Assembly: GCF_016481275.1 (NCBI RefSeq)
Contig: NZ_JAEMNW010000002.1
Location: 620,001-684,000 of the forward strand
From: Antrihabitans auranticaus
GTDB taxonomy: Bacteria; Actinomycetota; Actinomycetes; Mycobacteriales; Mycobacteriaceae
Direction: 5' to 3'
DNA: 64,000 nucleotides
The notes under the pieces are model-generated. The model worked only from the letters and a program-made list of their open reading frames with translations, searched no databases and was not told where the DNA came from. The position numbers and the translations under genes are program-made. This document shows, piece by piece, positions 17,528 to 46,275 of the stretch (positions within the stretch are counted from its first letter, which is position 1; every line of letters starts with the position of its first letter).

Positions 17528-17544
17528 CGGCGGGTGGATGCCTG

Positions 17545-28837: not shown

Positions 28838-29098
28838 TCAGGCGAAATAGAATGCGACCACCGCGATGGCCGAGGAACCGAGCAGAGCGGACATTGCGCG
28901 TCGGAGTGCCGCGGGAGCATGCCGGAGGTCCATGAAGTGGGACGCGACAAAGCCTGCTTTGACGAAAGCGAGAGTGATGACGGCGATTGCGGCGGTCTGA
29001 CGTTGCAGTCCGTGGTCGGCGCCCAGCGACCACGAACAAATCGAGATCGCGACGAGCAGGGTCCACACTACGAGGACAGGTTTGCGGGTTTCGGTCAT
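28838..29098 (-). CDS. Cytochrome c oxidase subunit IV-like small membrane protein
   Basis: 86 residues with three membrane helices: VLVVWTLLVAISICSW, TAAIAVITLAFVKAGFVASHFMDLR, and ALLGSSAIAVVAFYFA. The middle segment AFVKxxxVxxHFMDLRHAP is the signature of prokaryotic oxidase subunit IV/NorF-like proteins. It starts 1 bp after the subunit III-like gene. No subunit I or II gene is near. A homologue with the same neighbours is at 44668-44928. Confidence 0.78.
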   Translation of the reverse strand: MTETRKPVLVVWTLLVAISICSWSLGADHGLQRQTAAIAVITLAFVKAGFVASHFMDLRHAPAALRRAMSALLGSSAIAVVAFYFA

Positions 29099-29099
29099 G

Positions 29100-29690
29100 T
29101 CAATGCACCAGGTAGATGAGAGGAAAGAGCAGCAGCCAGATCAGATCGACCATGTGCCAGAAAATCCCGGCACCTTCCAGGTAGCCGAAATCATGCTGTC
29201 CCGCAACAGCTTTCCCGGTCAGGTTGCGAACCAGCGAGAGGAAGAACAGGCCGACGAAGACGTGCCCGAGGTGCAAGCCCGTGAGCACGAAATACAGCAT
29301 GAAGAAAGTGTTGGTGTGCGGCGTGAAGCCCGCGTCGACCTTCGACCACCATTCCAGCGTCTTGGCGACGACGAACACGGCGCCCAAAGCCATTGCGATC
29401 GTGATGGCTTGCCGGCTTGCTCGTGCGTTCCCGGTGCGGGCGGATGCGACGGCGCGCACCACTGCCAGCGAGCTGGTCAGGAGCACGAGGGTCTCGACCA
29501 GACCGACTCCGGGGGAGAGCATCTGCTGCGCAGCATCGAATCCCGGCGGATCCTGGCTGCGATACCAGAGGAACATGCAGAACAGGCCGACAAAGATGAA
29601 AATGTCGCCGAAGATGATCACCCACATTCCGGGCTCGCCCGGGGTGTGATCTGTGCGCGTGTAGCGCGCGATCGATTCGTCGACAGTCAC
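29100..29690 (-). CDS. Heme-copper oxidase subunit III-like protein (NorE/CoxC family)
   Basis: 196 residues with five membrane helices, as in the short subunit III/NorE form. Landmarks: GEPGMWVIIFGDIFIFVGLFCMFL (helix 1), FFMLYFVLTGLHLGHVFVGL (helix 4) and GIFWHMVDLIWLLLFPLIYLVH (helix 5, the usual C-terminus). GTG start overlaps the stop of the six-TM protein by 4 bp. No catalytic oxidase or NO-reductase subunit is encoded in the window, so the role is unclear. It may support another membrane enzyme. Homologue at 44930. Confidence 0.82.
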   Translation of the reverse strand: MTVDESIARYTRTDHTPGEPGMWVIIFGDIFIFVGLFCMFLWYRSQDPPGFDAAQQMLSPGVGLVETLVLLTSSLAVVRAVASARTGNARASRQAITIAMALGAVFVVAKTLEWWSKVDAGFTPHTNTFFMLYFVLTGLHLGHVFVGLFFLSLVRNLTGKAVAGQHDFGYLEGAGIFWHMVDLIWLLLFPLIYLVH

Positions 29691-30511
29691 TGAAACACTT
29701 CTCCATTCAGAACGAGGGCCCGGTCCGCGCGCGCCTCGTCGGCGACGGCCCGCAACAGGACGACCGTCATGACGATGTACCAGCTACCGAAAACGGCTGC
29801 GGGAATCCAGAATCCGAGCAACCCGTTCCACGCGAACGGTCCGGCCTTGAAGAAGATGATGAGGCTGGCGGGCGTGAGCAGAACGACAACCCAGATGTTG
29901 TAGAAAGCGACCCAGCGCGGAAAGACAGGCGTCGGCCGTCTGTCGGCCAATATCGAAACGATCAGTGCCCCTTGCTGTCCGAGGATGGGAGGCCACGGCA
30001 AGATCAGCATCACGTAGGAGACGTCGTTGAGCATCTGGGTCAGTTCGGCCGATCGCTCCGGTCTGAACGCGCCGCCGACAAAGAGGAGCATCGGGATCAT
30101 CAGTACGACGGTGACGATGATTCCCGACGCGAACTGCAAGATCGCCAGACTGGGCACCCGCACCGCCGACCGGCGCATCTGCATACTGATCGCGTAGAAG
30201 TACGGGATGGTGCACGCGACGCCGATCATCCCGAGGACCAGTCCGACCCGATGCAGATCGGCGTTGGTGGAGTAGATCGCCGCGACCTGATCGGCGGTGT
30301 TCGACGGGGGGATCATGGGGATGAAACCCCCCATGACACCCCAGCCGCCGAACAGCAACACCACGAATGCCGGTCCGCACCAGGCGCAGAAGACTTGGAT
30401 TCGACGAGACAACTCGATGTCGGCGAGAAGGTCGTCCGGTTCTGGACTCGACCTATCCCGCAACCTTGTCGCGGCGGGTAGGTCCGATGCTTCGATCACA
30501 GTTCGTACCAA
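29687..30511 (-). CDS. Six-TM membrane protein of unknown function, coupled to subunit III-like gene
   Basis: 274 residues from TTG 30511 (GTG 30499 is an alternative). A cytoplasmic N-terminus of about 35 residues is followed by about six membrane helices. Conserved with the protein at 45547-46275 through the motifs FRPER (loop), FPRWVxxxN and the strongly conserved FFKxGPFAWNGLLxFW near the last helices. I do not recognise a named family. Always next to the subunit III/IV-like pair in this window, so it is probably part of the same membrane complex. 27 bp after the phytoene-desaturase-like gene. Confidence 0.75.
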   Translation of the reverse strand: MVRTVIEASDLPAATRLRDRSSPEPDDLLADIELSRRIQVFCAWCGPAFVVLLFGGWGVMGGFIPMIPPSNTADQVAAIYSTNADLHRVGLVLGMIGVACTIPYFYAISMQMRRSAVRVPSLAILQFASGIIVTVVLMIPMLLFVGGAFRPERSAELTQMLNDVSYVMLILPWPPILGQQGALIVSILADRRPTPVFPRWVAFYNIWVVVLLTPASLIIFFKAGPFAWNGLLGFWIPAAVFGSWYIVMTVVLLRAVADEARADRALVLNGEVFQ

Positions 30512-30538
30512 TCTCTTTCGTGCGAATCCGATGCCGAC

Positions 30539-32161
30539 TCAGCGCTGCTTCTTGCCTTCGATACGCATGGCCGTTTCCGCCGCGAGTTTGCCGGGCAGCG
30601 AGCACACGCCGCCGACCGGATGAGTCCCGGCACCACTGAGGTACAGGCCGTCGACGGGTGTCTTGTACGCCCCGAGGCCCGCGGCCGGCTTTAGGGGTCC
30701 GAAGCGGGTGATCAGCGGGTCGACGTGGTACACGTTGCCGGCGGGGGCGTTGAACCGCTCCTCGATGTCCGGTCCGCCGAGGACCGCACGGTCGATCTCC
30801 AGATCGTCGATTCCCACGTAGTAGTTCGCGCAGTCGCGCAGCACGGAATCGCCGATCTTGTCGCGTACGTCCTCCCAGGGTTCCCGCGGCGTCACGGGGA
30901 TGACGCCGGACCACAGGTAGAAGGTGCTCTGTCCGGGCGGTGCCTGTGTCGGGTCGACCGCGGACGGAATCATCGCGCAACTGACCGGTACCGGATCGGG
31001 CCACTCCCCGCGGACGAGGGCATCCCAGCCGGCGCTCTGTTCGTCGAGGGTGTGCCACGCGGTGAGGTACTTGCGCAGATCGAGGCCGTCACCGCGCCAG
31101 TTCTCGTGCCGTTTCATCGACACCTCGCCCTTCAAGGCGACGTTGATCTTGAGCGACGTGGCGTGCGTCTTGCGGATGGGGATATCTTTGGCACGAGCGG
31201 TGAGCTTGCGGTCGAGTGCCCCGTCGGGAAGCAATTCGTTCAAAGTGATGACGGGGTTGCAGGTGCTGATGACGCCCTTGCGCGCACGGACGATCCGATC
31301 CGAATCGAGCTTCACCGCAGTGGCCCGGCCGTGCGAGAGAACGATCTCTGCCACACGGGAATCGGTGTGCACGGTGCCACCGTGCGCATACAGAAAGCGC
31401 GCCAGCGCGGCGGGAATTTCGCCGGTCCCGCCGACCGGCATCGCATTGGGAACTTTCTGGACGATGCCGAGATAAATCATCGCCCATGCGGTCATGTCGA
31501 GCTTCATCTGCGAGAACGCCGCCATCGCCGCGAGCGCCCCCTTGGGTAGTTCCGACTCGAACGTTTCCTCCAGAAACTCCGTGTGAGACGCAGTGGCGAG
31601 ATTTCGCAACGAATACAAGCGCTTCGGGTGCCGGACCGCCCGGCCGATTGCCTTGGCTACGTCTTTCGTCCATGGCCGCAGCGGGTGCGCTTTCATGTAC
31701 GCGATGGCCAAATCCATCGCGGGATCCAAGGCGTTCGACAGGTCCAGCCACGCTTGGGCGTCCTTCTTCGAAAAGCGGCGCAGCTCGTCGGCTGTCTTTC
31801 GGGGGTCCTTCCAGATTCCGAGCGAACTTCCGTCGGGTGCGAGCTGGATGTGGGCGGGGTCCACGGAGATCATCCGCAACCCGTACTTGTGCAGCTCGAG
31901 ATCCTGCACGATTCCGGAGGTTCCGAAGATCCCGGTCGCTTGGATCGCGCCCTCGTTGAAGAGATGCCCGGGTGCGCTCGGCAGGATCGCGTTGGTGCAC
32001 GTCATCCCGCCGATCGTCGGCGAGGCGTCGAGAACCGTGACCTGATGACCGGCGCGAGACAGGTAGCAACCCGCAGTCAGTCCGTTGTGTCCGGCGCCGA
32101 TGATCACGTAGTCCGTTTCGCTCGGCAGCGGGGTCGGGAGTGGGGTGTTGTCAGCGTTCAT
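30539..32161 (-). CDS. Phytoene desaturase-like FAD oxidoreductase
   Basis: 540 residues. N-terminal Rossmann motif IIGAGHNGLTAGCYLSRAG followed by the acidic residue in VLDASP and GGM; C-terminal FAD motif GLYLSGAGTHPVGGVCSLPG. Related to carotenoid desaturases/isomerases and to retinol saturase-type enzymes (COG1233). Strikingly similar to 38781-40484 (for example DPAHxQLAxDGSSLGxWxDPRKTAxEL in both). Expected to oxidise, reduce or isomerise a lipophilic polyene or isoprenoid using FAD. A TTAGATTAAAT element lies 26 bp before the ATG. Confidence 0.88.
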   Translation of the reverse strand: MNADNTPLPTPLPSETDYVIIGAGHNGLTAGCYLSRAGHQVTVLDASPTIGGMTCTNAILPSAPGHLFNEGAIQATGIFGTSGIVQDLELHKYGLRMISVDPAHIQLAPDGSSLGIWKDPRKTADELRRFSKKDAQAWLDLSNALDPAMDLAIAYMKAHPLRPWTKDVAKAIGRAVRHPKRLYSLRNLATASHTEFLEETFESELPKGALAAMAAFSQMKLDMTAWAMIYLGIVQKVPNAMPVGGTGEIPAALARFLYAHGGTVHTDSRVAEIVLSHGRATAVKLDSDRIVRARKGVISTCNPVITLNELLPDGALDRKLTARAKDIPIRKTHATSLKINVALKGEVSMKRHENWRGDGLDLRKYLTAWHTLDEQSAGWDALVRGEWPDPVPVSCAMIPSAVDPTQAPPGQSTFYLWSGVIPVTPREPWEDVRDKIGDSVLRDCANYYVGIDDLEIDRAVLGGPDIEERFNAPAGNVYHVDPLITRFGPLKPAAGLGAYKTPVDGLYLSGAGTHPVGGVCSLPGKLAAETAMRIEGKKQR

Positions 32162-32186
32162 AGGAATGTCTGTTCCTTAAATGACG

Positions 32187-32197
32187 TTAGATTAAAT
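32187..32197. promoter_or_regulatory. AT-rich TAGATT element before phytoene-desaturase-like gene
   Basis: TTAGATTAAAT at 32187-32197 in the 43-bp gap between the DUF7064-like gene and the phytoene-desaturase-like gene. It matches the element repeated at 37816, 37866 and 37878. It could drive or control internal transcription of the downstream half of the ten-gene run. Confidence 0.4.
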
Positions 32198-32204
32198 ACT
32201 GCGG

Positions 32205-33266
32205 TCAACGGATCGAAGCCGAGGCGCGTCGGCGCCCTGCCATCGCGTGTTGGTAGCGGTCGTACCAGAGTTCCTGGTAGGTGGAGTGCGCGACTCGTCC
32301 GGACGCGTCTTCCCAACGGAAGACGGTGTCGCGGAATGACGCATTCGGCCATGCCGGAATGTTCGCTGCGGCGATCGCTTCGCCGGTGAATCGATACATG
32401 GTGCCGTCGGCTGCTTCGGCCTCGACCGTCTGGCGCGTCACCACATCGAGAATCGGGTGATATTCCTGGGCCTCGCGGCGGACGCGGACGATCTCCTTCG
32501 TTTCTCCGTTGTCGACCACCCAGGCAAAGTGATGTGTCGGTGCACCTTTGGCGAACTCGAACAGTCCTTGCCATGCCGGGGCGCTGTCGGGGTGTTCGAA
32601 GCTGATCTGGTTGAAGATCAGGTCCTCGCCGAAGTACATGGGAGTCCAGCCGACCGGAGGCATCGGGCGCGGTCCACCTCGGCGCTCTTCCCGAACCTGT
32701 CCCCAAGAGCGGTCCCGCGGGTAGTAGCTGTCGACGGCGTGCTGCTCGCCCTTGATCGTCAGACTCCCGGTGACGTGCATGAACTGCTCGGTGCCGCCGG
32801 TGGCGGCAATCTTGCCGGCGCTGTGGTGCTGCTCCTCGCCGGGGACGATGTGGCCGCGAGCCAGCAACGGCGTCACGGCCTCGTGGATTGTGTCGAATGC
32901 CGCTTCGCCGTCGCCGCTGTCGTAGCTGACGCGGATCCGCGTACCAGGCTCCAAGAACTCGACTCGCAGGCCGTTTGCAGTGGTGTAGGTGTTGTCCGTG
33001 ACCTCGGGCCACGGCATGGTCATTTGGTAGTCCTGGTGCAGGTTGTCGGTCGTGTGCACGTTGTCCAGGCCTTGGAAAATGACCGGACCGCCCTGGATCA
33101 GGGAGAACGCGGGCATCCAGCGGACGTACACGAACGCGCCGATGTTTGCCTCCGGCACCGAGAATCCAAAATAGTGGGTATGGATTGTGTGCGGGTCCCA
33201 CTCGACTCCGGCTGGTTGCCGGGCGATCCACAGATCGCTTTCGGGTGGCTGTGTGGTTAGTCCCAT
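32205..33266 (-). CDS. CrtC/DUF7064-like lipid-modifying protein
   Basis: 353 residues from ATG 33266, chosen because AGGAG lies 6 nt upstream. Beta-rich sequence with many Trp and Tyr residues. Landmarks: HTHYFGFSVPEANIGAFVYVRW at the N-terminus, DSYYPRDRSWGQVREER in the middle and APTHHFAWVV. The layout of two lipocalin-like halves with a conserved RDRSWG motif recalls hydroxyneurosporene synthase/carotenoid 1,2-hydratase (CrtC) relatives now called DUF7064. Assignment is from memory. A hydratase or lipid-binding role on an isoprenoid substrate would fit the phytoene-desaturase-like neighbour. No signal peptide is seen. Confidence 0.6.
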   Translation of the reverse strand: MGLTTQPPESDLWIARQPAGVEWDPHTIHTHYFGFSVPEANIGAFVYVRWMPAFSLIQGGPVIFQGLDNVHTTDNLHQDYQMTMPWPEVTDNTYTTANGLRVEFLEPGTRIRVSYDSGDGEAAFDTIHEAVTPLLARGHIVPGEEQHHSAGKIAATGGTEQFMHVTGSLTIKGEQHAVDSYYPRDRSWGQVREERRGGPRPMPPVGWTPMYFGEDLIFNQISFEHPDSAPAWQGLFEFAKGAPTHHFAWVVDNGETKEIVRVRREAQEYHPILDVVTRQTVEAEAADGTMYRFTGEAIAAANIPAWPNASFRDTVFRWEDASGRVAHSTYQELWYDRYQHAMAGRRRASASIR

Positions 33267-33306
33267 GCTGTACTCCTGAGTAAATGGTGTTGCTGGCAAG
33301 GTGAAT

Positions 33307-34422
33307 TCAGCTGCGGTTGCCGATGAAGGTCTGGGCGTCACCGCTCGGCGCGTCCTGGCCGATGAGTTTCGCGAGCAACTGGCTCGCGGGGTTGTTGAGC
33401 CTCATGGGCGCGTCGGGAGGCAGGAAGCCGAGCTCGATCATCAGGTTCCCCGCGCGGTGCATGATGGCTGCCAACCGGACCGCGGCGAATACCTCGTAGT
33501 AGTCGAGGTCGACGACCACGTGTCCCGAAACGCGCTCGTAGGATGCGACGATCTCGGCTCGGCTCGGAATGCCCTCGGGGACAGGCACTCCGATGCCTTC
33601 GGTGTGGTGGCGGAGGATGAAGATCCACCACGCCAGGTCCATTTCGCGCGTGCCGAGGTCCACCATCTCCCAATCGAGGGTTGCTGCGACGGTGAGGTCA
33701 TCGGCGATGATCTGGTTGCCCAGTCGGGCATCGCCCCAGTTGAGCACCGTCGGTCCTTCGGTCTTGGGCCGGTTGGCTTCGAGCCAGCGGAAGCCGGCCT
33801 CGATCGTCGGATTGGCTTCTCCGGCGCGCGCCCAGTCGAAATATGCTCGCCAGGTGTGGATTTGCTGATCGATACGACTTGTGGCTGCATCGGGTTCGAG
33901 GAACTCGAGCCCTATGGTGCGCCAGTCGGCGGCGTGGATCGCGGCCATGCCGGTGAGTGAGTTCTCGATCAGTCGGCGGCGATCGGCGGCGGACAGATCA
34001 GCGACCCAACCGGCGGCTGTGAACGGCGGATCGTCGGCGGCGATTCGTCCGTCGACGCGCGAGAGGACGAGGAACGGTCCGCCGAAGATCGACGTGTCAC
34101 TCTCGGACCACCACGCCTGGGGCATCGGCACGGCGGTTCGCCGAAACAGGGCGTCGATCACCGCGAACTCTTTTTCGAGCTGATAGCTCGGGAAGATTCC
34201 CGGGGTCGACGGCGCTACCCGTGCGACGAAGTTGTGTGTGAACCGGTCGCCTCCGGTCGTCCACGCGGCGTCGAACAAGAGCGTTTCCGCCGACATTCCC
34301 GCCGCTTCGGGGGTGGTGACGTCGGTGACTGCGATATCAGATGCATCCGGAAGCTTTGTCGCCAGCCAACTCTCGAGGGCGCGCGCAGCTGCTATGGGAT
34401 CGGTGGTGTTCTTCAGCGCCAT
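33307..34422 (-). CDS. Aminoglycoside phosphotransferase-fold protein
   Basis: 371 residues from ATG 34422 (AAGGAG about 8-10 nt upstream). The frame stays open upstream to 35190, but that overlaps the membrane protein gene. APH/choline-kinase fold: N-lobe with HNFVARVAPSTPG, catalytic loop NWGDARLGNQII and metal-binding DWEM in place of the usual DFE. This is the ACAD10/11-type subgroup often found with acyl-CoA dehydrogenases. It probably phosphorylates a small hydroxylated lipid or intermediate rather than a drug; the substrate is unknown. Confidence 0.8.
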   Translation of the reverse strand: MALKNTTDPIAAARALESWLATKLPDASDIAVTDVTTPEAAGMSAETLLFDAAWTTGGDRFTHNFVARVAPSTPGIFPSYQLEKEFAVIDALFRRTAVPMPQAWWSESDTSIFGGPFLVLSRVDGRIAADDPPFTAAGWVADLSAADRRRLIENSLTGMAAIHAADWRTIGLEFLEPDAATSRIDQQIHTWRAYFDWARAGEANPTIEAGFRWLEANRPKTEGPTVLNWGDARLGNQIIADDLTVAATLDWEMVDLGTREMDLAWWIFILRHHTEGIGVPVPEGIPSRAEIVASYERVSGHVVVDLDYYEVFAAVRLAAIMHRAGNLMIELGFLPPDAPMRLNNPASQLLAKLIGQDAPSGDAQTFIGNRS

Positions 34423-34448
34423 GGCTGACTCTCCTTGCTTGTGATGGG

Positions 34449-35363
34449 TTAGGGCGTCGCGTGGACGGGTTCGGGGACCCGATTCGGTGCGGCGGGCACG
34501 ATGATCGGCGGGGGAGGAACGTTGCCCTCGGGAACACCGAAGATGGCGGCCTTGACGATTCCGAGCTTGGACGTGACGGCTACCTCGGCGTCGGGCCGAG
34601 CCACCACGAACGAGAGAATCCAGACGCACGTCAGGGCAAGCCCGAGACTCACCAGCCACGCCAGATGGGTAACCACCAGCGGCGCATCGAGATTCAGTGC
34701 CGTCCACACCGGCCATGCCGTCGCACCGTTGGCGAGGCCGTCGGCCATCGGGATGAGAAGGACGACCAGTCCGATGCGCCATCCGGGTAGGAACGGTTTG
34801 AGCCGGTAGATCAGCGCGCCGGCTACGAGCGGCATGACCGGGTTGACGCACACCCACCACAGAGGCAGGCCCCAGAAGTTGAGTGGTTGCGGGCCGTAGT
34901 ACTCGTAGGCACCCATGAGCACGCCTGGGCTCTCCAGAACGATGTTGATGCACACGTCCATCACATAGAGCCCGAACAAACCTTTCACAGTGATGCCGTT
35001 GGTGAAGATCCGATAGGCCAGGTACGCGAGTCCACCGACGTACCAGATGTAGACAAAGTTGATGAAGAGCGGGAAGTCGCGTCCCATCGACGAAAACGTC
35101 GTCAGCAGTGCGCCTTCGCGGATGTAGACCAGGCCGAGTACGTCGACGATGGGCTCGAACAAGCAGGCAAGTCCGCCGCCCACGAGGCATACCGCCAGGA
35201 GTGGTCCCTTGCCGGTGAGCAGGTGTTTGACCGCGAAGAACACGCCGACCACCACGGGTAACCCGAGAAAGATCGTGAAGATGATCTCTGCCGCGTACGG
35301 CATTTCGGTCGTGGGATGGGCCGGAATTGCCGGTGCAGCAAGGAATTTGTCCGAGAAGGTCAA
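34449..35363 (-). CDS. Polytopic membrane protein, relative of the protein at 47173
   Basis: 304 residues from TTG 35363, supported by AAGGAG 5 nt upstream. About seven membrane helices. The central segment SPGVLMGAYEYYGPQPLNFWGLPLWW is nearly repeated in the protein at 47173-48162 (HPGVIMGAYEYYGTQPFEFY), and both carry an early FEPIVDVLG/GEPMLDLVG motif. The D/E/N-rich membrane motif recalls the AveC-like protein at 17545 at lower similarity. Function unknown; a membrane enzyme on a lipid is plausible. First gene of the ten-gene minus-strand run. Confidence 0.65.
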   Translation of the reverse strand: MTFSDKFLAAPAIPAHPTTEMPYAAEIIFTIFLGLPVVVGVFFAVKHLLTGKGPLLAVCLVGGGLACLFEPIVDVLGLVYIREGALLTTFSSMGRDFPLFINFVYIWYVGGLAYLAYRIFTNGITVKGLFGLYVMDVCINIVLESPGVLMGAYEYYGPQPLNFWGLPLWWVCVNPVMPLVAGALIYRLKPFLPGWRIGLVVLLIPMADGLANGATAWPVWTALNLDAPLVVTHLAWLVSLGLALTCVWILSFVVARPDAEVAVTSKLGIVKAAIFGVPEGNVPPPPIIVPAAPNRVPEPVHATP

Positions 35364-35593
35364 TGTGACTCCTTCGGTCCGCAGGAAAGTCCGCCGGATG
35401 GCGGAGGGGAGACGGACGAGACGCCGCTGGGTCCGTCGCTGGCCTGTGACCGAGGCTACATGGTGGGTGAGCGGTATTTCAAGAGTGAAAATTGGTTCAT
35501 TTTAAATTTACTGGCTCTGCGCGGCATGGTTGAATGAAAGAACGATCAGCCCTGACAAGACTTTCAGTCTGCGATGATGGTGGGGTGGTGGAT

Positions 35594-36223: not shown

Positions 36224-36315
36224 GTCCGGTTCGCGTCGAAACATCTTGTCGAGCAGGCGGTTGCGCGAGCGGCGTGCGAGTCGCGTAAACGGCAAGCGCC
36301 TGGTCGACGGGATTC

Positions 36316-37815: not shown

Positions 37816-37888
37816 ATAGATTAAATAATAGTACGAGCTCTGTGTCGATTGCCACGGATAATCGAATAGATTCGATGATAGATTAAAT
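37816..37888. promoter_or_regulatory. Divergent promoter with three TAGATT elements and a palindrome
   Basis: ATAGATTAAAT at 37816-37826, ATAGATTCGAT at 37866-37876 and ATAGATTAAAT at 37878-37888 lie between WS/DGAT and the enoyl-CoA hydratase. The middle one forms a perfect palindrome ATCGAAT-AG-ATTCGAT (37861-37876). The last ends 2 bp before the hydratase ATG, leaving no normal ribosome site, so the hydratase may be translated from a nearly leaderless message or its start may lie elsewhere. Confidence 0.5.
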
Positions 37889-37890
37889 TC

Positions 37891-38670: not shown

Positions 38671-38674
38671 GGAG

Positions 38675-38692
38675 TACGTACGGAAGTACGTA
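38675..38692. promoter_or_regulatory. Perfect palindrome TACGTAC-GGAA-GTACGTA
   Basis: Seven-base arms at 38675-38681 and 38686-38692 around GGAA, located 5 bp after the hydratase stop and about 90 bp before the next ATG. The size and symmetry fit a dimeric-regulator operator better than a terminator. No second copy was noticed in the window. Confidence 0.45.
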
Positions 38693-38780
38693 TCCCATCG
38701 GAGTCGGTGCGCAAGTCTGCGCGTGAGGATTGGTTGGACGCTGTTTGTCCATTCCGCTCCGAGATCGAAGGACTCGCTAC

Positions 38781-40484
38781 ATGTCGAAACCTCCCCAAAC
38801 TCCACGCGAGGCTGACGTCGTTGTCGTCGGCTCAGGCCACAACGGACTTGTCGCTGCTGCGTATCTGGCCCAGTCCGGCCTCGACGTGCTCGTGGTCGAG
38901 GCTTCGCCGACCGCCGGCGGAATGACGTCGACCAATCCGTTCACTCCGGAAGCGCCGGAGTACATGATCAACGAGGCATCGATCCAGGCGTCGTTGTTCC
39001 GCACGACAACGATCGACAAGGACCTCGGTTTGTCGAAGAAGCACGGTCTACGTCAGACCGTCATCGATCCGGCGCACTTCCAATTGGCCGCTGATGGAAG
39101 CTCTTTGGGCCTCTGGCGCGATCCGCGCAAGACCGCTGCGGAACTCGAGTACTTCTCGAAGAAGGATGCGCGGGCGCTGCTGGAGCTGTACGAGGTCATC
39201 GACGCCGCCGTCGACATCGGCCTGCCGATGATGCAGACCAATGTCACGCGTCCGGAACTGCTGAAGATCATGAAAGCGGTCAAGGGCGTCGCGAAGAACC
39301 GGAAGCAACTCATCAACGTCGGCCGCTGGATGTCCAGTTCGCAGGCCGAGGCGATCGAGGAAAGCTTCGAGCACGACATGATTCGGGCGCCGTTGCTGAC
39401 GTCGCTGCCGTTCATGCCGTTCGACGCCGACATGAGCGGCTGGTCGCTGATCTATCTCGGCGTCCTGAGCAAGTACGGCGTTGCGATGTTCCACGGTGGC
39501 ACGGGTTCGCTGCCCAAGGCATTGATCAAGGTGATCGAGTCGCATGGGGGCCAGGTCATCACGAGTTCGCCGGTCGAGCAGCTGATCATGAACGGCAACC
39601 GCTGCACTGGTGTGCGCGTCGCGGGTGGTCAGGAAATCCTCGCGCGGCGCGGTGTTCTGACCGCGTGCAGCCCCAAGACGACACTGACCCGGTTGTTGCC
39701 TGCGGGTGTGCTGGAGCCGAAGAAGCAGAACGCTGCCGACCACATTCCGACCAAGAAGCGTGGGATCGCCGACTACAAGTTGAACGTCGCACTGTCCGGC
39801 AAGATCGACATGAGCAAGCACGAGAAGTGGCGCGGTGACGGTATCGACCTGCGGCTGGCGTGCAACTGCTATCACACCTACGAGCAGGCGCTCGCCGCCG
39901 CGCGCTCGTGCGTGCGCGGTGAGGTTCCGGACGCGATTCCGGGTCTCGCGCAGGTGACGAATGCGTTCGACCCGTCGATGTCGCCGAAGGGCAAGGACCT
40001 GTGGTGGTTCTGGACGGGTCTGACCCCGTCGATTCCGCGTGATGGCTGGGATGTGGCACGCAAGGAAATCACCGAGAGTGTGATCCGCGACGCGGAGCAG
40101 TACTACAAGGGCGTCGAGAGCCTGGAGATCGCGCGCCGTCCGCTTGCCCTGCCTGACATCGAGGAGCGGTTCTGGGCGATCGACGGCAGCGTCTATCACG
40201 TCGACCCGACGATTACGCGCTTCGGTCCGAACAAGCCGGTCGCGGGCTTCGCGGGCTACAAGACCCCCGTCGACGGCCTGTTCCTAACCGGATCGGGTAC
40301 ACACCCGGTCGCGGGAATCAGTGGAATGCCAGGTCAGAACGCCGCGCGCACAATGCTGAAGCAGTTCGCCCGTGAAGATCGGGGTGGTCGGTTGGGCATC
40401 CTGACCGACAAACTGCGCCGGGAAAAGTCGACGAGTGTGTACGACAGTGGCCCGAACGATGCGTTCCCTGCTGTGCGGTCCTGA
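38781..40484 (+). CDS. Phytoene desaturase-like FAD oxidoreductase, second long copy
   Basis: 567 residues from ATG 38781. FAD-binding N-terminus VVVVGSGHNGLVAAAYLAQSG, VVEASPTAGGM, C-terminal FAD motif LFLTGSGTHPVAGISGMPGQNAA. Clearly homologous along its length to 30539-32161, with the same DPAHFQLAADGSSLGLWRDPRKTAAEL block, but 27 residues longer, mainly at the C-terminus. Probably acts on a related substrate or a consecutive step. Transcribed after the hydratase; the LuxR-type regulator follows on the same strand. Confidence 0.88.
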   Translation: MSKPPQTPREADVVVVGSGHNGLVAAAYLAQSGLDVLVVEASPTAGGMTSTNPFTPEAPEYMINEASIQASLFRTTTIDKDLGLSKKHGLRQTVIDPAHFQLAADGSSLGLWRDPRKTAAELEYFSKKDARALLELYEVIDAAVDIGLPMMQTNVTRPELLKIMKAVKGVAKNRKQLINVGRWMSSSQAEAIEESFEHDMIRAPLLTSLPFMPFDADMSGWSLIYLGVLSKYGVAMFHGGTGSLPKALIKVIESHGGQVITSSPVEQLIMNGNRCTGVRVAGGQEILARRGVLTACSPKTTLTRLLPAGVLEPKKQNAADHIPTKKRGIADYKLNVALSGKIDMSKHEKWRGDGIDLRLACNCYHTYEQALAAARSCVRGEVPDAIPGLAQVTNAFDPSMSPKGKDLWWFWTGLTPSIPRDGWDVARKEITESVIRDAEQYYKGVESLEIARRPLALPDIEERFWAIDGSVYHVDPTITRFGPNKPVAGFAGYKTPVDGLFLTGSGTHPVAGISGMPGQNAARTMLKQFAREDRGGRLGILTDKLRREKSTSVYDSGPNDAFPAVRS

Positions 40485-40577
40485 CAACCGAAGATCAGAG
40501 AGCGGGTGTCGGCAACGGCGCCCGCTCCGCCCCGTGCGCTGAGGAAGTTTGCAAATCTACGCTGAAGTAGAGAATCT

Positions 40578-42920
40578 ATGGTGATGGTCGCAGCCGTAGC
40601 AGGACCGAAAGCCTCGCCTGGACTCCCGCACGAAACGACGAGTTTCGTCGGCAGAAGACGCGAACGCGGCGAGATCCGGCAACTCCTCAGCGACGCGCGG
40701 CTGGTGACGCTCACGGGGTTCGGTGGTGTCGGCAAGACCCGACTGGCGTTGCGTACGGTCGCCGACCTGCGCCGCGCGTTCGCCGACGGCGTCTACTTCG
40801 TCTCGCTCGCGTCGATCAGCGATCCTGCGCTGCTGACACAATCCGTGGCATCCGCCCTCGGTCTGCAAGCACGTGTCCAGCGGGCCGGACCCGACTGGCT
40901 CGCCGAGTACCTCCTGGAGAAGGAGGTACTTCTCGTCCTCGACAACTGTGAGCACTTGGTCGACGCTGCCGCCGAGTTGGCTGACACGCTCCTGCGTCGC
41001 TGCGCCCGGGTCCGCATTCTTGCCACGAGCCGGGAACCGCTGCGCATCGACGGAGAGACAGTCCACGCCGTTTCGCCCCTGAGCCTTCCGCCGGTGAACG
41101 TCGGGGGCTCGTCGTCGGCATTGCACGCTTTCGAGGCGGTCAGCCTGTTCATCGACAGGGCCAAGGCAGTCGCGCCTGATTTCGAGCTGTCCGATGCCAA
41201 CGGCGCGGCGATCGCCGAGGTCTGCGCAAAACTCGAGGGCATTCCGCTTGCGATCGAGCTCGCTGCCGTGCGCCTGCGCACGATGTCGCCCGCCGAGCTT
41301 GCGGGAAACTTGACCGGTCGCTGGGCCTTGCTCACGAGGGGAAGCCGAACTGCCCCGGACCGGCAGCGCACCATGGCGGCCTGCATCGAATGGAGTTACG
41401 AGCTGTGCACCGACGCGGAGCGCGACGTGTGGGCCGCGGTCTCGGTGTTCTTCGACGGTTTCACACTCGACGCGGCGGAGTCGGTGTGCGCCGGTGTGGC
41501 CGACGAGCCGCTGGGCGACACCATCGCGTCGCTTGTCGAGAAGTCGGTGCTCACGGCTCAAAAGTATGACGCGCGAACCAGATTCCGTCTGCTTCCCCCG
41601 CTTCGTCATCGCGGTCTGAAGCGGCTCGAGGAATCGGGTGAGCTGACGGAATTCCGTCGGCGCCATCGTGATTGGTACGTCGCGCTGGCTCAGCTCGCAC
41701 ATCGAGACTGGATCAGCCAGCGGCAGGCGGAATGGATCCGCACGATGCGCCGGGAAACGGGCAACTTGCAGGCTGCGCTCGGATTCTGTTTTGGCGAACC
41801 CAACGAGGCCGAGCCCGGTCTGCAAATGGGTGCCGATCTGCACGAGTTCGGCCTTGCCGAGGGCCTGTTTCATCCCGGTTTGATGTGGTTCAAACGGTTG
41901 CTGCCTTTGTCGCCGCAGCCGACATTGACGCGCGCGTTGGCATTGCGGACGGCCTGTTGGTGGTCGGCGGCAAGTGGCGACATCGCCAGCTCGCTGCGCC
42001 TCTTGGTGGAGGGGCAGAGGGTTGCCGACGAGGTCGGCGGTCCGGTCGAGAATCTGTTCACGCAGACGGCAGGTTTCGTGGCATTGTTCAGCGGCGACAT
42101 CGAGCGTTCGATCGAGCTTTTCGACGAAGCGCTCGACGTGTTCCGGGAGGCTGGCGACACCTCCGAGATCACGCAGACGCTGTATCTGTTGCAGCTCGCA
42201 CACGTGTTCTCGGGCAATTTCGAACGTGCGATGGAGTGCTACGAAGAGTGCCGTGCGATCACCGAACCGGTCGACGAGAGTTGGGCCCGGGGCTATTCGA
42301 CGTGGATTGCCGGCTTCACCAGATGGAGCAGCGGTGCAGTCACCGAAGCCGAGAAGCTGTACAAGAGCGCGCTCGTGATTGCGCGTCGGATCGACGATCC
42401 GGTGGGAATCGGCCTCTGTCTGGAGGGACTCGGCTGGATTGCGGTGACGTCGGAGCCGGAGCGAGCGGCCATCGTGCTCGGTGCTGCCGACAGTGTGTGG
42501 GACCGGATCGAAACGTCGACTTCGGCGTTGCGTGGACTGTTCGTCCATCATCAAGGCGCACTCGCGACGGTCGCCGCGTCGCTCTCGGAGGCCGACCGCG
42601 ATGCGGCCTGGGCCCAGGGGCGTTCCTTGTCGATGGCGGAAGCGACGAAGTTCGCACTCGGTGAGACCGTGGCTCGCAAGCCGGCCGCAGCGGGGCCCGC
42701 GCGTTCGCCGTCGGGAGTACTGACCAAGCGCGAGAACGAAATTGCCACGTTGGTTGCCCAGGGCGTGAGCAACAAGGACATCGCCGAAAGGCTCGTCATC
42801 TCCAAGCGCACCGCCGAAACTCATGTCGAGAACATCCTCACGAAGCTCGGCTTCACCTCACGAAACCAGATCACCGTGTGGATGGGGGAGCAAGCCATCC
42901 CCGCGGGTGGGCGGGGCTGA
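40578..42920 (+). CDS. LuxR-family regulator with NB-ARC/AAA ATPase domain
   Basis: 780 residues. N-terminal STAND-type ATPase: Walker A GFGGVGKT (47-54), Walker B LLVLDNCEHL (118-127), then a winged-helix and TPR-like helical region. C-terminal LuxR HTH about 712-771 (LTKRENEIATLVAQGVSNKDIAERLVISKRTAETHVENILTKLGF). This is the architecture of the large ATP-binding LuxR activators of actinobacteria. TCTAC-N6-GTAGA (40556-40571) just before the ATG may be an autoregulatory site. Probably an activator of nearby lipid genes, but the ligand and targets are unknown. Confidence 0.9.
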   Translation: MVMVAAVAGPKASPGLPHETTSFVGRRRERGEIRQLLSDARLVTLTGFGGVGKTRLALRTVADLRRAFADGVYFVSLASISDPALLTQSVASALGLQARVQRAGPDWLAEYLLEKEVLLVLDNCEHLVDAAAELADTLLRRCARVRILATSREPLRIDGETVHAVSPLSLPPVNVGGSSSALHAFEAVSLFIDRAKAVAPDFELSDANGAAIAEVCAKLEGIPLAIELAAVRLRTMSPAELAGNLTGRWALLTRGSRTAPDRQRTMAACIEWSYELCTDAERDVWAAVSVFFDGFTLDAAESVCAGVADEPLGDTIASLVEKSVLTAQKYDARTRFRLLPPLRHRGLKRLEESGELTEFRRRHRDWYVALAQLAHRDWISQRQAEWIRTMRRETGNLQAALGFCFGEPNEAEPGLQMGADLHEFGLAEGLFHPGLMWFKRLLPLSPQPTLTRALALRTACWWSAASGDIASSLRLLVEGQRVADEVGGPVENLFTQTAGFVALFSGDIERSIELFDEALDVFREAGDTSEITQTLYLLQLAHVFSGNFERAMECYEECRAITEPVDESWARGYSTWIAGFTRWSSGAVTEAEKLYKSALVIARRIDDPVGIGLCLEGLGWIAVTSEPERAAIVLGAADSVWDRIETSTSALRGLFVHHQGALATVAASLSEADRDAAWAQGRSLSMAEATKFALGETVARKPAAAGPARSPSGVLTKRENEIATLVAQGVSNKDIAERLVISKRTAETHVENILTKLGFTSRNQITVWMGEQAIPAGGRG

Positions 42921-42974
42921 TCAAGCGGGGCGTCGATCAGGCTGTTGTGGAGGTGGGGGGTCGCGGTTCGGTCA

Positions 42975-42993
42975 GGTAAATGCCTGGTCGGCG
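42975..42993. repeat. Outlying fragment of the 83-bp repeat
   Basis: GGTAAATGCCTGGTCGGCG differs at one base from the GGTAAGTGCCTGGTCGGCG core of the array at 43955-44602. It ends just before the DUF559 stop, so sequence related to the array stands on both sides of that gene. The preceding 50 bases (about 42925-42974) also loosely resemble the repeat (GGTGGGGGGTCGCGGTT). Confidence 0.5.
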
Positions 42994-42994
42994 C

Positions 42995-43861
42995 TCATAC
43001 TGGGGCTCCGGCGTCGCGGAGCTTGGCATGGACGCGGCGATGCAGCGAGGCCGGCCTGTTCAGCAACCTGGTGCCCACACGAACTATGCGCCAACCCAGT
43101 TCCTCGAGCTGCGGATATCGCTCGAGGTCGCGTTCCTTCTGTTCCGAAATGCTCCAATGGCCGTCGCCGTCGTACTCGACACCGACCTTCCAACGCCGCC
43201 AACCCAGGTCGACTTGGGCTACGAACAGCCCATATTCGTCGGTAACGATTATCTGAGTGTCGGGACGAGGCAGTCCGGATTCGATGATGGCCAGACGAGT
43301 TCGTGTTTCGGGCGGTGACTCGGCGCCGCCGTCGACGAGGTCGAGCATCGAGCGCAACGCCACGATTCCGCGAGCTCCGGGATGCCTCTCGGCCAGGGCG
43401 CTGACCTCCAGGGGCTTCAGACCTGTTGCGTTGCAAAGCGCATCGACGATCTCGATCGACTTCGGAGCGTGCAGTGTTCGCCCCAGATCGAATGCCGTGC
43501 GGGCTGGTGTTGTCACCCGAATACCGTCGACCGCCATGATCTCGTCGGGTTCAACCTTGTACTGCCGAACGGCCAAACCTCGCGGAGCATGAAAGTGGTC
43601 GTGCCGAATCACTTCCGCGGGTTCGTGACCGTCGATCCACTTCGTCCCGTGAATCGCCGCGGCCGAACGGCCAGAGAGGATGGCGTCTTTCCCGGAGTAC
43701 GCGGCCGCTGCTAGCGCCCGAACATGTGCAGTAACTTCGACGCGTTTTCGCACGTACACGTCACGGTAAATGCGCGTGAAGTCGTGGCGCAGTTGGTGCT
43801 CTGTCAGCTCGCCGAGTTGGATTGCCTGCGACCCCCGAAATGGTCGATCGAATTCCCCCAT
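42995..43861 (-). CDS. DUF559 (Vsr-like endonuclease fold) protein with AbiEi-like N-terminus
   Basis: 288 residues from ATG 43861; the frame stays open into the repeat array to 44305, but that part is translated repeat. The N-terminal half (LGELTEHQLRHDFTRIYRDVYVRK) resembles the DNA-binding half of AbiEi-type antitoxins. The C-terminal DUF559/Vsr-like nuclease half has VGVEYDGDGHWSISEQKERDLERYPQLEELGWRIVRV, with the acidic and Lys residues of the PD-(D/E)XK fold. Such genes are frequent and often mobile in mycolata. The ribosome site GAGTGG is poor. Flanked by related repeats. Confidence 0.75.
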   Translation of the reverse strand: MGEFDRPFRGSQAIQLGELTEHQLRHDFTRIYRDVYVRKRVEVTAHVRALAAAAYSGKDAILSGRSAAAIHGTKWIDGHEPAEVIRHDHFHAPRGLAVRQYKVEPDEIMAVDGIRVTTPARTAFDLGRTLHAPKSIEIVDALCNATGLKPLEVSALAERHPGARGIVALRSMLDLVDGGAESPPETRTRLAIIESGLPRPDTQIIVTDEYGLFVAQVDLGWRRWKVGVEYDGDGHWSISEQKERDLERYPQLEELGWRIVRVGTRLLNRPASLHRRVHAKLRDAGAPV

Positions 43862-43954
43862 CCACTCAGCATGGCAAATTCGCTGGCGTCGCACTTCGCC
43901 GATTTTCTGCGCTGTGGATAACCCCGAGCCTATCCACAGGTGAGCCCAGATTGG

Positions 43955-44602
43955 GGTTGTCGAGGGGGCGGTTGGCTGAGCAAGGTGCGGGACGCCCGCC
44001 CGGTAAGTGCCCGGTCGGCGGGTGGGTTGCGGGGTCGTGGTTGTCGAGGGGGCGGTTGGCTGAGCAAAGTGCGGGAAGCCCGCCCGGTAAGTGGGTGGGC
44101 GGAGAGTCACGAACGCCGACGAGGCGGTTGGCTGAGCAAAGTGGGGGAGGCCCGCCCGGTAAGTGCCTGGTCGGCGGGTGGGCGGAGAGTCACCCACGCC
44201 GACCAGGCGTTTGGCTGAGCAAAGTGCGGGAAGCCCGCCCAGTAGGGGCCTGGTCGGGGGTGGGTTGCGGGGTCGTGGTTGTCGAGGGGGCGGTTGGCTG
44301 AGCAAAGTGCGGGAAGCCCGCCCGGTAAGTGCCTGGTCGGCGGGGTGGGTTGCGGGGTCGTGGTTGTCGAGGGGGCGGTTGCCTGAGCAAACTGCGGGAA
44401 GCCCGCCCGGTAAGTGCCTGGTCGGCGGGTGGGCGGTGAGTCACCCACGCCGACCAGGAGGTTGGCTGAGCAAAGTGCGGGAAGCCCGCCCGGTAACTGC
44501 CTGATCGGCGGGTGGGCGGAGAGTCACCCACGCCGACCAGGCGGTTGGCTGAGCAAAGTGCGGGAAGCCCGCCCGGTAAGTGCCTGGGCGGGCTGATCAG
44601 GC
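43955..44602. repeat. Tandem array of eight imperfect ~83-bp repeats
   Basis: Unit starts (GGTTGGCTGAGCAAAG core) at 43970, 44054, 44126, 44209, 44292, 44377, 44460 and 44543; periods are 84, 72, 83, 83, 85, 83 and 83 bp. Each unit has a short hairpin GCGGG-AAG-CCCGC. The rest of the unit comes in two types: one with GGGTTGCGGGGTCGTGGTTG and one with GAGAGTCACCCACGCC followed by GACCAGG. The second type forms an 11-bp stem with CCTGGTCGGCG of the same unit. The 806 bp from 43862 to 44667 hold no supported gene. Confidence 0.85.
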
Positions 44603-44667
44603 CGGGTTGAATCGCTGAGCACCAGCCGGTAGTCGGTGAGCGGCACGTCGGGTCCAGCTGCGCGCAG

Positions 44668-44928
44668 CTACATGAACAAAAACAACCCGAGGAGGACTGC
44701 GAGAGTGCCGAATACGTACGTTTCGAAGACCGCCCGCAAGGGTGTGGGTGCGTTTCCGATCTCCATGAAGTGATTGCCGACGAGACGTAGTTTGACGAAG
44801 GCAATCGTGATCACGACGGCGCCGACGAGGGTTTCGTGTGAGTCCGCTTCCTCGGTGCCGATGAACCAGCTCGCGATCGTTGCGAAAGCGAGGATCAGGT
44901 AGACGGTTGTTGTTCGTCGCAGGGTCAT
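44668..44928 (-). CDS. Cytochrome c oxidase subunit IV-like small membrane protein, second copy
   Basis: 86 residues, three membrane helices (YLILAFATIASWFIG, VGAVVITIAFVKLRLVGNHFMEIG, FGTLAVLLGLFLFM). Same length as the copy at 28838 and same signature (AFVKLRLVGNHFMEIGNAPTPLR). 1 bp after the subunit III-like gene, exactly as in the first module. The stop is 66 bp from the end of the repeat array. Confidence 0.78.
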   Translation of the reverse strand: MTLRRTTTVYLILAFATIASWFIGTEEADSHETLVGAVVITIAFVKLRLVGNHFMEIGNAPTPLRAVFETYVFGTLAVLLGLFLFM

Positions 44929-44929
44929 G

Positions 44930-45550
44930 TCAGTGCACCACGTAGAAGAGGGGGAAGAGGACCAACCAGAGCAGGTCGATCATGTGCCAGATGACCGCGC
45001 TGATTTCGGCGAGCTTGAGGCGCCCACGCGTTAGTTGCCGAGTCTTGGGAGTGAACGCAATCACCAGCAGTGCCACCAGCATGCAGAACCCGATCAGCAA
45101 GTGCAGCAGATGGATTCCGGTGAATACGAAGTAGTACATGAAGAAGTCGTTCGTTGTCAGGGTGTGCCCGCCCTGGACGAGATCGACGTACTCGGTGACC
45201 TTGATCGTGGCGAATGTGATCGCGCACCCCATGGTAGCGACGACGAGGCCGCGTGGCCTGCCACCATTGCGCAGGCTGTGCAATGCGCGTGCCACGAAGT
45301 ACGAACCCGTCAGGAGCACAAGGGTATTGACGACCGCCAGGTCCGGGTGCAGGAGATTCTGCGCGGCGTCGAACATCTCCTTCTGCTGTCCGCGGCAAAC
45401 CAGGATCATCCCGAAGAACAGGCTGAAGAAGGTCATGTCGCCGATGACCATCACCCACAGCCCGACCTCGCCGGGCAGGTACTTACCGGACCTCTTCGCG
45501 GCCGGATCGGTATCCGTAGGGAACCGATCCGATAGGTCGACGGCTGTCAT
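44930..45550 (-). CDS. Heme-copper oxidase subunit III-like protein, second copy
   Basis: 206 residues, five membrane helices. GEVGLWVMVIGDMTFFSLFFGMIL, NDFFMYYFVFTGIHLLHLLIGF and VIWHMIDLLWLVLFPLFYVVH match the corresponding parts of the protein at 29100. Starts with ATG 45550, overlapping the six-TM gene by 4 bp. No subunit I or II gene is nearby. The gene order, overlaps and spacing repeat those of the first module, so the module is inherited as a unit. Confidence 0.82.
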   Translation of the reverse strand: MTAVDLSDRFPTDTDPAAKRSGKYLPGEVGLWVMVIGDMTFFSLFFGMILVCRGQQKEMFDAAQNLLHPDLAVVNTLVLLTGSYFVARALHSLRNGGRPRGLVVATMGCAITFATIKVTEYVDLVQGGHTLTTNDFFMYYFVFTGIHLLHLLIGFCMLVALLVIAFTPKTRQLTRGRLKLAEISAVIWHMIDLLWLVLFPLFYVVH

Positions 45551-46275
45551 GCTCGCTCGAAGTCCTTCGAACCGACGACGACCTCAGCCGAAACCTCGGG
45601 CTCGCGTCGCGCTGCGATAATCGTCATGGTCGCCATCACGAGGAACCAGGTGCCGAATGTCGTTGCGGCGAGCCAGAACGATAGCAGCCCGTTCCACGCG
45701 AAGGGGCCTGTCTTGAAGAACAGCAGCAGGCATGCGGGCAGGAAGGTGAAGGCGATCCACAGGTTGAGGTAGCCCACCCAGCGCGGGTAGATCGGCGCGT
45801 GGCCCTTGTCGGTGAGGATTGCGATGCCGATCGAGATGCACTGGAAGATCGCGGGTGGGCCGTTGATGATGAACGGAATCCAGGCCATGTCGTTGGCGAG
45901 CATCAGGACGTCGGGATCACGCTCGGGACGGTAGCTCGCGGCCATCATGATCATGATGGGCATGAAGATCGCGACCACGCCGGCGGTTCCGCAGATGAGC
46001 TGCACACTTGCCAGCGTCTCGGTGTGCCGACCGATTCGTTTGAGCTGGAACGAGATTGCGGCTACGAGCGGTGCTGTAAGGGCCGCACCGAACATCATGA
46101 TGACAAGGCCGAGACGGATGGCGTTCGGATTGTCCTGCCACAGGGCGGAGACCGCTTCCTTCGGCAGATCGGGGGAAGGCAGAGGGAAGAATCCGGTAGT
46201 AAGCAAGCCGCCGAACAGCGCTACTACGAATACGAAACCACTGCTTGCGCAGAGGATTTGAATTCTCGTTGTCAT
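45547..46275 (-). CDS. Six-TM membrane protein of the subunit III/IV-like module, second copy
   Basis: 242 residues from ATG 46275; the open frame upstream is antiframe of the winged-helix gene. About six membrane helices. Shares YRPERDPD, YPRWVGYLNLW and FFKTGPFAWNGLLSFW with the protein at 29687 but lacks its cytoplasmic N-terminal extension of about 30 residues. AGGAG lies 10 nt upstream. The start overlaps the stop of the winged-helix gene (ATGA), so a regulator and this membrane module are translationally coupled. Confidence 0.75.
   Translation of the reverse strand: MTTRIQILCASSGFVFVVALFGGLLTTGFFPLPSPDLPKEAVSALWQDNPNAIRLGLVIMMFGAALTAPLVAAISFQLKRIGRHTETLASVQLICGTAGVVAIFMPIMIMMAASYRPERDPDVLMLANDMAWIPFIINGPPAIFQCISIGIAILTDKGHAPIYPRWVGYLNLWIAFTFLPACLLLFFKTGPFAWNGLLSFWLAATTFGTWFLVMATMTIIAARREPEVSAEVVVGSKDFERA

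Follow-up and report, generated by a model that had tools for sequence, protein, structure and literature searches.

Two copies of a NorE/NorF-like gene pair with a constant six-helix partner in Antrihabitans auranticaus: a candidate membrane complex for the handling of water-insoluble substrates

Proteins with the COX3 fold, which is known for its lipid cleft, include CtaE, of the aa3 oxidase, and NorE, which in the operons of cNOR, the nitric oxide (NO) reductase (gene order norCBQDEF), is followed by the COX4_pro-type protein NorF. A 64,000-nucleotide stretch of the genome of Antrihabitans auranticaus (henceforth the window: C12:620001-684000 of a 6.5-Mb genome; 62.6% G+C) contains two sets of three genes in which a NorE/NorF-like pair is joined to a protein with six membrane segments. 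NorE and NorF are already known; no description of the six-helix protein or of the triplet was found in searches of the open-licence literature. The reading that we favour, tentatively and at somewhat under an even chance, is that the triplet encodes a complex of the inner membrane, neither an oxidase nor an NO reductase, by which water-insoluble substrates are handled on behalf of enzymes encoded nearby.

The two triplets lie about 14 kb apart on the minus strand, in the order of transcription TM6, III, IV (TM6 designates the six-helix protein, III the COX3-fold protein and IV the COX4_pro-like protein). Copy 1 is made up of TM6 (29687..30511; the listed open reading frame, ORF, starts with TTG and the family alignment begins near 30420), III (29100..29690, GTG start) and IV (28838..29098); copy 2 of TM6 (45547..46275), III (44930..45550) and IV (44668..44928). 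In both copies TM6 and III overlap by 4 bases and a single base separates III from IV. Both III and both IV score above the curated cut-offs of Pfam COX3 (PF00510; E 1.8e-17 for copy 1, 1.1e-11 for copy 2) and COX4_pro (PF03626; E 5.2e-12 and 5.1e-9), respectively. The III of copy 1 also matches COX3 chains among PDB sequences. By local BLAST the copies are 36% (TM6), 40% (III) and 35% (IV) identical to each other; hydropathy assigns six membrane segments to TM6, five to III and three to IV, and the motif FFKxGPFAWNGLLxFW is present in both TM6 proteins. Searching the whole genome yields two matches to TM6 and two to COX4_pro, all of them inside the window.

Oxidase subunits I and II are not encoded in the window: the genome's sole COX1 match (CtaD-like, E 3e-161) is at C1:527560, and the same contig, C1, holds the sole COX2 match (C1:263138) and the third COX3 (C1:256345). 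NorB was not found in this genome: the COX1 profile yields only the one CtaD-like match and, since the same profile detects a second, NorB-like class of match in other genomes, norB is taken to be absent. The original prediction, made from the letters of the window alone, had described the duplicated triplet with its order and overlaps, the five- and six-segment proteins, the shared motif and the missing subunits I and II, and had pointed to norB and ctaD as the genes to look for elsewhere; all of this is borne out, with a ctaD-like gene found and norB not. It had also named a way in which it might fail, namely that the genes are what is left of an oxidase operon close by. Such an explanation, whether by relics or by misassembled pieces, has the want of a catalytic subunit in its favour. 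It is refuted by conservation, and we regard it as almost certainly wrong: the reading frames are intact and have coding base composition, the same three genes occur in three phyla with correlated divergence, and the oxidase genes lie on another contig.

Is the pair nevertheless that of an oxidase? The AlphaFold model of III from copy 2 (36 sequences; pLDDT 89.7) has the COX3 fold, Foldseek aligns it with an oxidase chain of C. glutamicum at a TM-score of 0.79/0.85, and the 37 PDB chains that it matches at E<=0.001 all come from cytochrome oxidase or respiratory supercomplex entries. III thus belongs to the COX3 superfamily by profile (both copies) and by fold (copy 2), and the second failure that the prediction had envisaged, absence of a III/IV fold, does not apply to it. 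It also keeps H, E, W and D positions that we take to be typical of COX3. A tree was built from 88 III sequences, with the omission of locus L073, which duplicates part of the window. Its three CtaE rows split from the remainder at 100/100; on the other side of the split are 78 rows from modules, 4 NorE from nor operons and 3 NorE-like genes that have no TM6. The module label requires two changes on this tree, 26 of whose 85 inner branches are open. There are no CyoC or QoxC rows, and only the 4 NorE rows come from nor operons, so the clade is coarse: what the tree appears to say is "not CtaE, mixed with NorE", and little more. With III on the NorE side and a COX4_pro protein directly after it, the pair is, as far as sequence can tell, NorE/NorF-like rather than an oxidase III/IV pair. 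The prediction's "subunit III/IV-like" therefore stands for the Pfam families and for the fold of III, and gives way as a statement about oxidase subunits. One result counts against NorE kinship: the best NCBIfam model for both copies of III is actinobacterial CtaE, followed by CyoC, all far under their cut-offs (aa3_CtaE_Actin: 91 and 75 bits vs 190). Membership in the aa3 oxidase is contradicted by the tree split, by the genomic distance from the oxidase genes and by that sub-cut-off score; membership in a cNOR is contradicted by a genome whose single COX1 match is CtaD-like and that has no NorB.

The III of copy 2 groups with Nocardioides (99/94); that of copy 1 sits apart from it, on a long branch whose position is uncertain. 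The tree thus lends no support to a local duplication of a single module. A module III in a record titled as a Klebsiella pneumoniae metagenome-assembled genome (L024) is close to those of two such genomes of Gammaproteobacteria; the bin is perhaps mislabelled. As we read the gene names of their records (cytochrome c, subunit I, CbbQ/NirQ/NorQ, VWA or NorD, subunit 3, subunit IV), plasmids of Paracoccus alcaliphilus, Roseibium (where IV is named hypothetical) and Ruegeria carry norCBQDEF, and a Sulfuricurvum plasmid carries a nor gene set with Q and D swapped. Azospirillum, Skermanella and Thiothrix have III-IV pairs with neither norB nor TM6 in the stretch read; on the Thiothrix plasmid pTfr153 (L140, 4941-8736) the pair is accompanied by hemerythrin, NorQ-type and VWA genes, with neither norB nor norC in that stretch.

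The module pair travels with TM6. Scanning contigs with TM6, and accordingly with a bias towards it, gave 59 loci in records titled Mycobacterium, Nocardia, Frankia, Amycolatopsis, Nocardioides, Binatia, Rhodospirillales, Thauera, Colwellia and Zhongshania; the unit recurs in three phyla, Actinomycetota, Binatota and Pseudomonadota. These loci contain 95 TM6, 36 III and 36 IV in 83 blocks, of which 34 have all three genes, 47 have TM6 alone and 2 have III and IV. A less biased test covered 201 genomes from the family to which the window belongs, searched separately for III and for TM6; scoring stopped at 15 candidates per genome for III and at 14 for TM6, and the counts are lower bounds. Module-type III stands clear of the other III matches (E 4e-54, against 7e-35 for the next) and comprises at least 42 genes in at least 28 genomes, and TM6 is present in 28 of those 28. 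Thirty-eight of the 42 directly adjoin TM6 on the same strand (the remaining 4 are 2.2-5.2 kb away on the opposite strand), and 28 of these 38 have, as the script counts them, two or more TM6 genes at a distance of up to 1 kb. Conversely, of the 70 strong TM6 genes all but one, 69, have a module III within 8 kb (strong being E <=3e-35, 70 of 76 rows; the six weak rows, E 2e-16 to 6e-11, are not near one). TM6 is upstream of III in all 57 pairs within 150 bases, and the TM6 and III distances over 59 adjacent pairs are correlated (r 0.85, or 0.54 for distant pairs only; null maximum 0.13 in 500 permutations), in a set that excludes pairs more than 150 bases apart, among them the loci with the order III-IV-TM6 (L029, L041, L056, L060, L061, L131). 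Plasmids also carry the unit: TM6 is found in 18 records, and III and IV in the stretch of 12 of the 13 read. The six-segment protein is thus the constant third partner that the original prediction had made of it, and a III/IV pair with such a partner and no catalytic subunit probably has, as also proposed there, a function of its own.

Among 398 genomes of the phylum of Thauera terpenica, with at most seven candidates scored per genome, TM6 appears at E<=1e-15 in T. terpenica and one other, and no copy was found in phages at E<=1e-3. Loci L098-L111 have tandem TM6-TM6 pairs upstream of III-IV, an arrangement present in 13 of 13 sampled module-bearing genomes of one genus and possibly indicative of a heterodimer.

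Might the module instead tune an existing respiratory enzyme (the aa3 oxidase or an NO reductase) during growth on membrane-active substrates, as NorE/NorF do for NO reductase? The place of III on the NorE side of the tree, its retained H, E, W and D positions and the presence of a COX1 gene in all 36 module-bearing genomes tested (28 of the family and 8 from named loci) would be consistent with that. On the other hand, CtaD-, NorB- or NorC-like ORFs are absent from 106 of 110 loci, the other four, with NorB and NorC, being nor operons; some COX3-type III is found in 199 of the 201 family genomes and the module type in 28; and the window's own genome has one CtaD-like COX1. Of the 28 family genomes with the module, 23 have CtaD-type matches only (G045 is counted here, its two COX1 matches being part-length pieces at contig ends), and 5 have an additional second-class match (E 5e-51 to 2e-55, frames near 800 amino acids) that we read as NorB-like. 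Respiratory tuning is less likely because 23 of 28 module genomes are without a NorB-like match, and we consider it distinctly unlikely; its narrower form, an accessory of NO reductase, is rejected on those genomes and on the NorB-less host.

TM6 has no named family. Neither copy has a match at E<=1 in Pfam or NCBIfam, and no PDB sequence is matched by copy 2 alone or by a profile of 88 members (the alignment, A2, holds 88 of 97 TM6 sequences, 95 from the loci and 2 from the window). AlphaFold, given these 88 sequences with copy 2 first, returns a confident model (pLDDT 95.7, pTM 0.90) for which Foldseek finds nothing at E<=0.001 in the PDB (best 0.14) or among viral models (best 0.20). P164, W166 and G196 are invariant in the 88 rows, and R116, D129, R165, G190, P191, A193 and W210 are kept in 91-99%. 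The best His column reaches 23 of 88 and the best Cys column 41 of 88, and TM6 would appear, from its alignment, to be likely without a cofactor site. Comparison by hhalign discounts TM6 as a relative of AveC (1.7% probability), III (0.4%) or IV (0.2%). DUF4386 (PF14329) is matched weakly by 6 of the 88 members (best E 4.8e-8).

Such conservation raises the main rival of substrate handling, that TM6 is an enzyme in its own right, acting in the membrane on terpenoid-like substrates (for instance as isomerase, hydratase/dehydratase or cyclase, with conserved Asp and Arg and an aromatic pocket), and is merely stabilised by the NorE/NorF-like proteins. R116, D129 and R165 are kept in 92-98% of the 88 rows, K188 in 74%, and several Trp are conserved; AveC-like membrane proteins occur in the clusters; there are many TM6 paralogues per cluster; and 2 of the 88 members, by position the two copies in L021, match the sterol-isomerase superfamily EBP/EXPERA (PF05241, best E 2e-6), one of them above the curated cut-off (29.5 vs 25.7 bits). 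The same profile, however, also picks out a COX1 protein below its cut-off, hhalign gives TM6-EBP a probability of 0.1% (and TM6-AveC that already quoted), the 50 of 501 PDB fold matches that were listed include no EBP, and there is no EBP match in the window's own genome. TM6 as an EBP-like isomerase was dropped on the two members, the one score over cut-off and the stray COX1 match. Catalysis by TM6 in the wider sense seems to us unlikely, though well worth keeping in view.

The surroundings of copy 1 suggest what the complex might serve. Directly upstream of TM6, at a distance of 27 bases, a FAD oxidoreductase of the phytoene-desaturase/CrtO class is encoded (30539..32161, minus strand; Pfam Amino_oxidase and NAD_binding_8; best NCBIfam model CrtO with 234 bits, under cut-off; PDB match 4dgk, phytoene dehydrogenase), and the two genes are likely to share a transcript. 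Upstream of that gene is one for a DUF7064/DUF7065 (Rv3169-type) protein (32205..33341, minus strand), a weak relative of which is found beside the Thauera terpenica module. Downstream of IV, after a gap of 178 bases, the same strand encodes a single-cluster ferredoxin (28375..28659; PF13370), a ferredoxin-reductase-type flavoprotein (26978..28360, its start picked inside a longer ORF; PF07992, PF14759) and a cytochrome P450 (25727..26929; PF00067, E 2e-31). A simple scan found no promoter-like site and 7 terminator-like sites vs 4.7 by chance; since one of these sites lies where IV ends (28872-28855), the genes from the DUF7064/7065 protein to the P450 may be transcribed in more than one unit.

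This set of redox genes can be read differently: the complex might dock the neighbouring FAD enzyme or ferredoxin at the membrane and let it reduce quinone. The FAD enzyme, ferredoxin, ferredoxin reductase and P450 do flank copy 1 on one strand, a CrtO-like gene lies within about 1 kb of 10 of the 83 blocks, and P450, ferredoxin reductase and ferredoxin genes are found near a T. terpenica TM6; but 73 of the 83 blocks have no CrtO-like gene that close, and TM6 has no conserved His or Cys able to bind haem or metal. Docking strikes us as improbable.

Copy 2 has other neighbours. An ORF just upstream (46272..47168, minus strand) has no Pfam match, has relatives in the module-holding loci L020 and L057, and looks regulator-like by eye. 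Divergent from copy 2, a distant AveC-like membrane protein is encoded on the plus strand (47110..48162): it has no Pfam match alone, but a nine-row alignment that holds it scores 95% (E 3e-8) in hhalign against a PF17198 cluster. Outside the module, an AveC-like protein (17308..18549, plus strand; PF17198) forms part of the cluster context. The window has an Mce-type cluster, in which 15886-16842 matches MlaD, and further genes for an enzyme of the wax ester synthase type, for an enoyl-CoA hydratase and for another FAD enzyme. Between the modules, 40578-42920 encodes a LuxR-type regulator with AAA/NB-ARC and TPR matches, a strong relative of which (775 bits) is near the L035 module; just downstream of copy 2, 43955-44599 is a tandem array of 6 to 8 copies of a G+C-rich unit of about 83 bases.

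Similar company is kept elsewhere. Within 8 kb of the 83 blocks there are AveC-like genes at 34, CrtO-like genes at 30, acyl-CoA dehydrogenases at 30 and LLM flavin enzymes at 25. AveC is found in 19 of the 29 TM6 genomes of the family and in 9 of the 172 others (Fisher p 4e-13, kinship uncorrected). The module lies beside Mce genes on pRB98 and pRZP2 (an Mce-type gene is also found in L014) and beside a TonB receptor on pLA3 and pSA2, and several module plasmids have neighbours with catabolic names: the neighbouring clusters look catabolic for hydrophobic compounds.

Such a setting would also suit tolerance or efflux, a complex that shields the inner membrane from toxic hydrophobic compounds or expels them. 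TetR-type regulators adjoin the unit (in L102, L103, L104, L110 and L111 TM6 has divergent neighbours that belong to a single TetR-type cluster, with Pfam checked on the L104 member), T. terpenica has MMPL-type and DUF1329 neighbours, and the module occurs in a polyketide cluster. The importers (Mce, TonB) and catabolic-looking enzymes that are co-located with it point the other way, no energy-coupling domain was found, and the explanation appears very improbable.

Some TM6 clusters (L057, at 1.0-9.8 kb; L040, L044, L045) have NorQ/CbbQ-type AAA and VWA-type genes adjoining AveC-like genes (Pfam was checked on the L040 members, the VWA match being weak). None of these four loci has a NorB-like ORF, and the NorQ/NorD-type chaperones may serve another enzyme. 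On a plasmid of Streptomyces NBC_00080 (L124, 2062-9726) a mycofactocin gene set is followed by a hydroxylase, a flavin reductase and a solo TM6. The link to mycofactocin hinted at by this plasmid, and by mftR on pLA3, is not general: in 37 genomes, reached via 38 of the 59 loci, MftC scores over cut-off in 19, all Actinomycetota, and the 18 TM6 genomes without it are 17 from outside that phylum and Paraconexibacter.

A possible link to a substrate comes from monoterpene catabolism. In Thauera terpenica 58Eu a zinc alcohol dehydrogenase (belonging to the benzyl alcohol dehydrogenase type and similar to the geraniol dehydrogenase GeoA) precedes TM6, III and IV, after which comes a DUF7064 protein; DUF1329 and an MMPL-type protein are close by. 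Another TM6-III has genes for DUF1302 and DUF1329 at a distance of about 3 kb. A third TM6, truncated where the contig stops, follows genes for a P450, ferredoxin reductase, ferredoxin, acyl-CoA dehydrogenase and aldehyde dehydrogenase. T. terpenica mineralises cyclic monoterpenes anaerobically (PMC4109377). Table 1 of the same paper lists, in the island of Castellaniella defragrans, GeoA (CDM25267, 84% to EPZ14350) and after it three hypothetical proteins, CDM25268, CDM25269 and CDM25270, with 74, 69 and 66% to EPZ14349, EPZ14348 and EPZ14347, which are consecutive T. terpenica accessions beside its GeoA; gene order and tabulated identities make these three appear to be TM6, III and IV. By liquid chromatography-mass spectrometry CDM25268 is marked "++" there, which appears to denote enrichment on a monoterpene, and CDM25269 and CDM25270 are undetected (PMC4109377). 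Co-location and that proteome mark, as given in the paper's tabulated data, may link the module to monoterpene catabolism of the GeoA/LDI type. Linalool isomerase was considered as a relative of AveC and dropped: the available part of PMC4791888 describes a two-domain Ldi-like protein and has no mention of AveC. The available parts of two sterol papers (PMC7411048, PMC11061730) do not mention cytochrome c oxidase, nor do those of PMC4847356 and PMC6394551 mention an oxidase.

How would a complex that handles water-insoluble substrates work? Each copy would encode a small inner-membrane complex of three proteins, TM6 with its NorE-like (COX3-fold) and NorF-like partners; that the three are physically joined we infer from their association. 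The complex would serve clusters that import and oxidise water-insoluble compounds, to judge by the genomic setting isoprenoid- or steroid-like ones. TM6 would be the substrate-specific part, binding the apolar compound in the bilayer; the NorE/NorF-like subunits would stabilise TM6 and supply the lipid cleft; and the compound would pass to adjacent oxidising enzymes (FAD enzyme, ferredoxin/P450, alcohol dehydrogenase), the hand-over being conjecture. Substrate handling fits better than respiration because TM6 and III/IV travel together, TM6 appears to have no cofactor site, and the neighbours are importers and oxidising enzymes. Several observations weigh against it: 1) TM6 is without III/IV in 47 of the 83 blocks (some cut by locus ends), and III/IV are thus not always needed. 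2) TM6 and III share their nearest neighbour in only 28 of 59 pairs, and their correlation is partly kinship. 3) The neighbour counts of the 83 blocks lack a random-locus control, and some loci overlap. 4) One genus supplies 11 of the 19 AveC co-occurrences. 5) One plasmid module sits in a polyketide cluster with a P450, and the solo TM6 on the Streptomyces plasmid is beside mycofactocin genes: the substrate class may be wider. 6) The identity of the C. defragrans triplet rests on the gene order and identities of a published table, not on sequences.

If substrate handling holds, the COX3 fold would have a new role, in a protein that acts apart from heme-copper enzymes, and the triplet may point to a step at the membrane that has so far been overlooked in the catabolism of terpenoid and steroid-like compounds. 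Where NorB is missing, as in this genome, a NorEF-like pair linked with a different membrane protein also separates the function of NorEF from NO, and offers a clean test object. One can go further and think of the NorE/NorF pair as a general membrane platform for apolar ligands, NO with NorB and terpenoid- or steroid-like compounds with TM6, the latter as a cofactor-free capture complex: a doubtful extension, if an attractive one.

Set beside the systems with which we began, the module shares with NorE/NorF of the cNOR operons its COX3-type protein followed by a COX4_pro-type protein, and its side of the tree; it differs in being without a nearby norB or norC, in having TM6 in their place and in its catabolic-looking setting. 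With CtaE of the aa3 oxidase it shares the fold, the Pfam COX3 family and the best, though far sub-cut-off, NCBIfam model; it differs in its separate clade (as against three CtaE rows), and the genome's third COX3 lies elsewhere. The weak DUF4386 likeness of a few TM6 does not extend to the two in the window. The monoterpene islands have the GeoA-like alcohol dehydrogenase directly before TM6-III-IV in T. terpenica and, according to the table in PMC4109377, GeoA followed by three unnamed proteins whose order fits in C. defragrans; they differ from the window, where the neighbours are P450, CrtO-like and AveC-like, and the triplet proteins are there labelled hypothetical. The limonene dehydrogenase CtmAB, as presented in the same paper, is phytoene-dehydrogenase-like and comes with a ferredoxin and a ferredoxin reductase (PMC4109377), a set comparable to the FAD enzyme, ferredoxin and ferredoxin reductase that surround copy 1.

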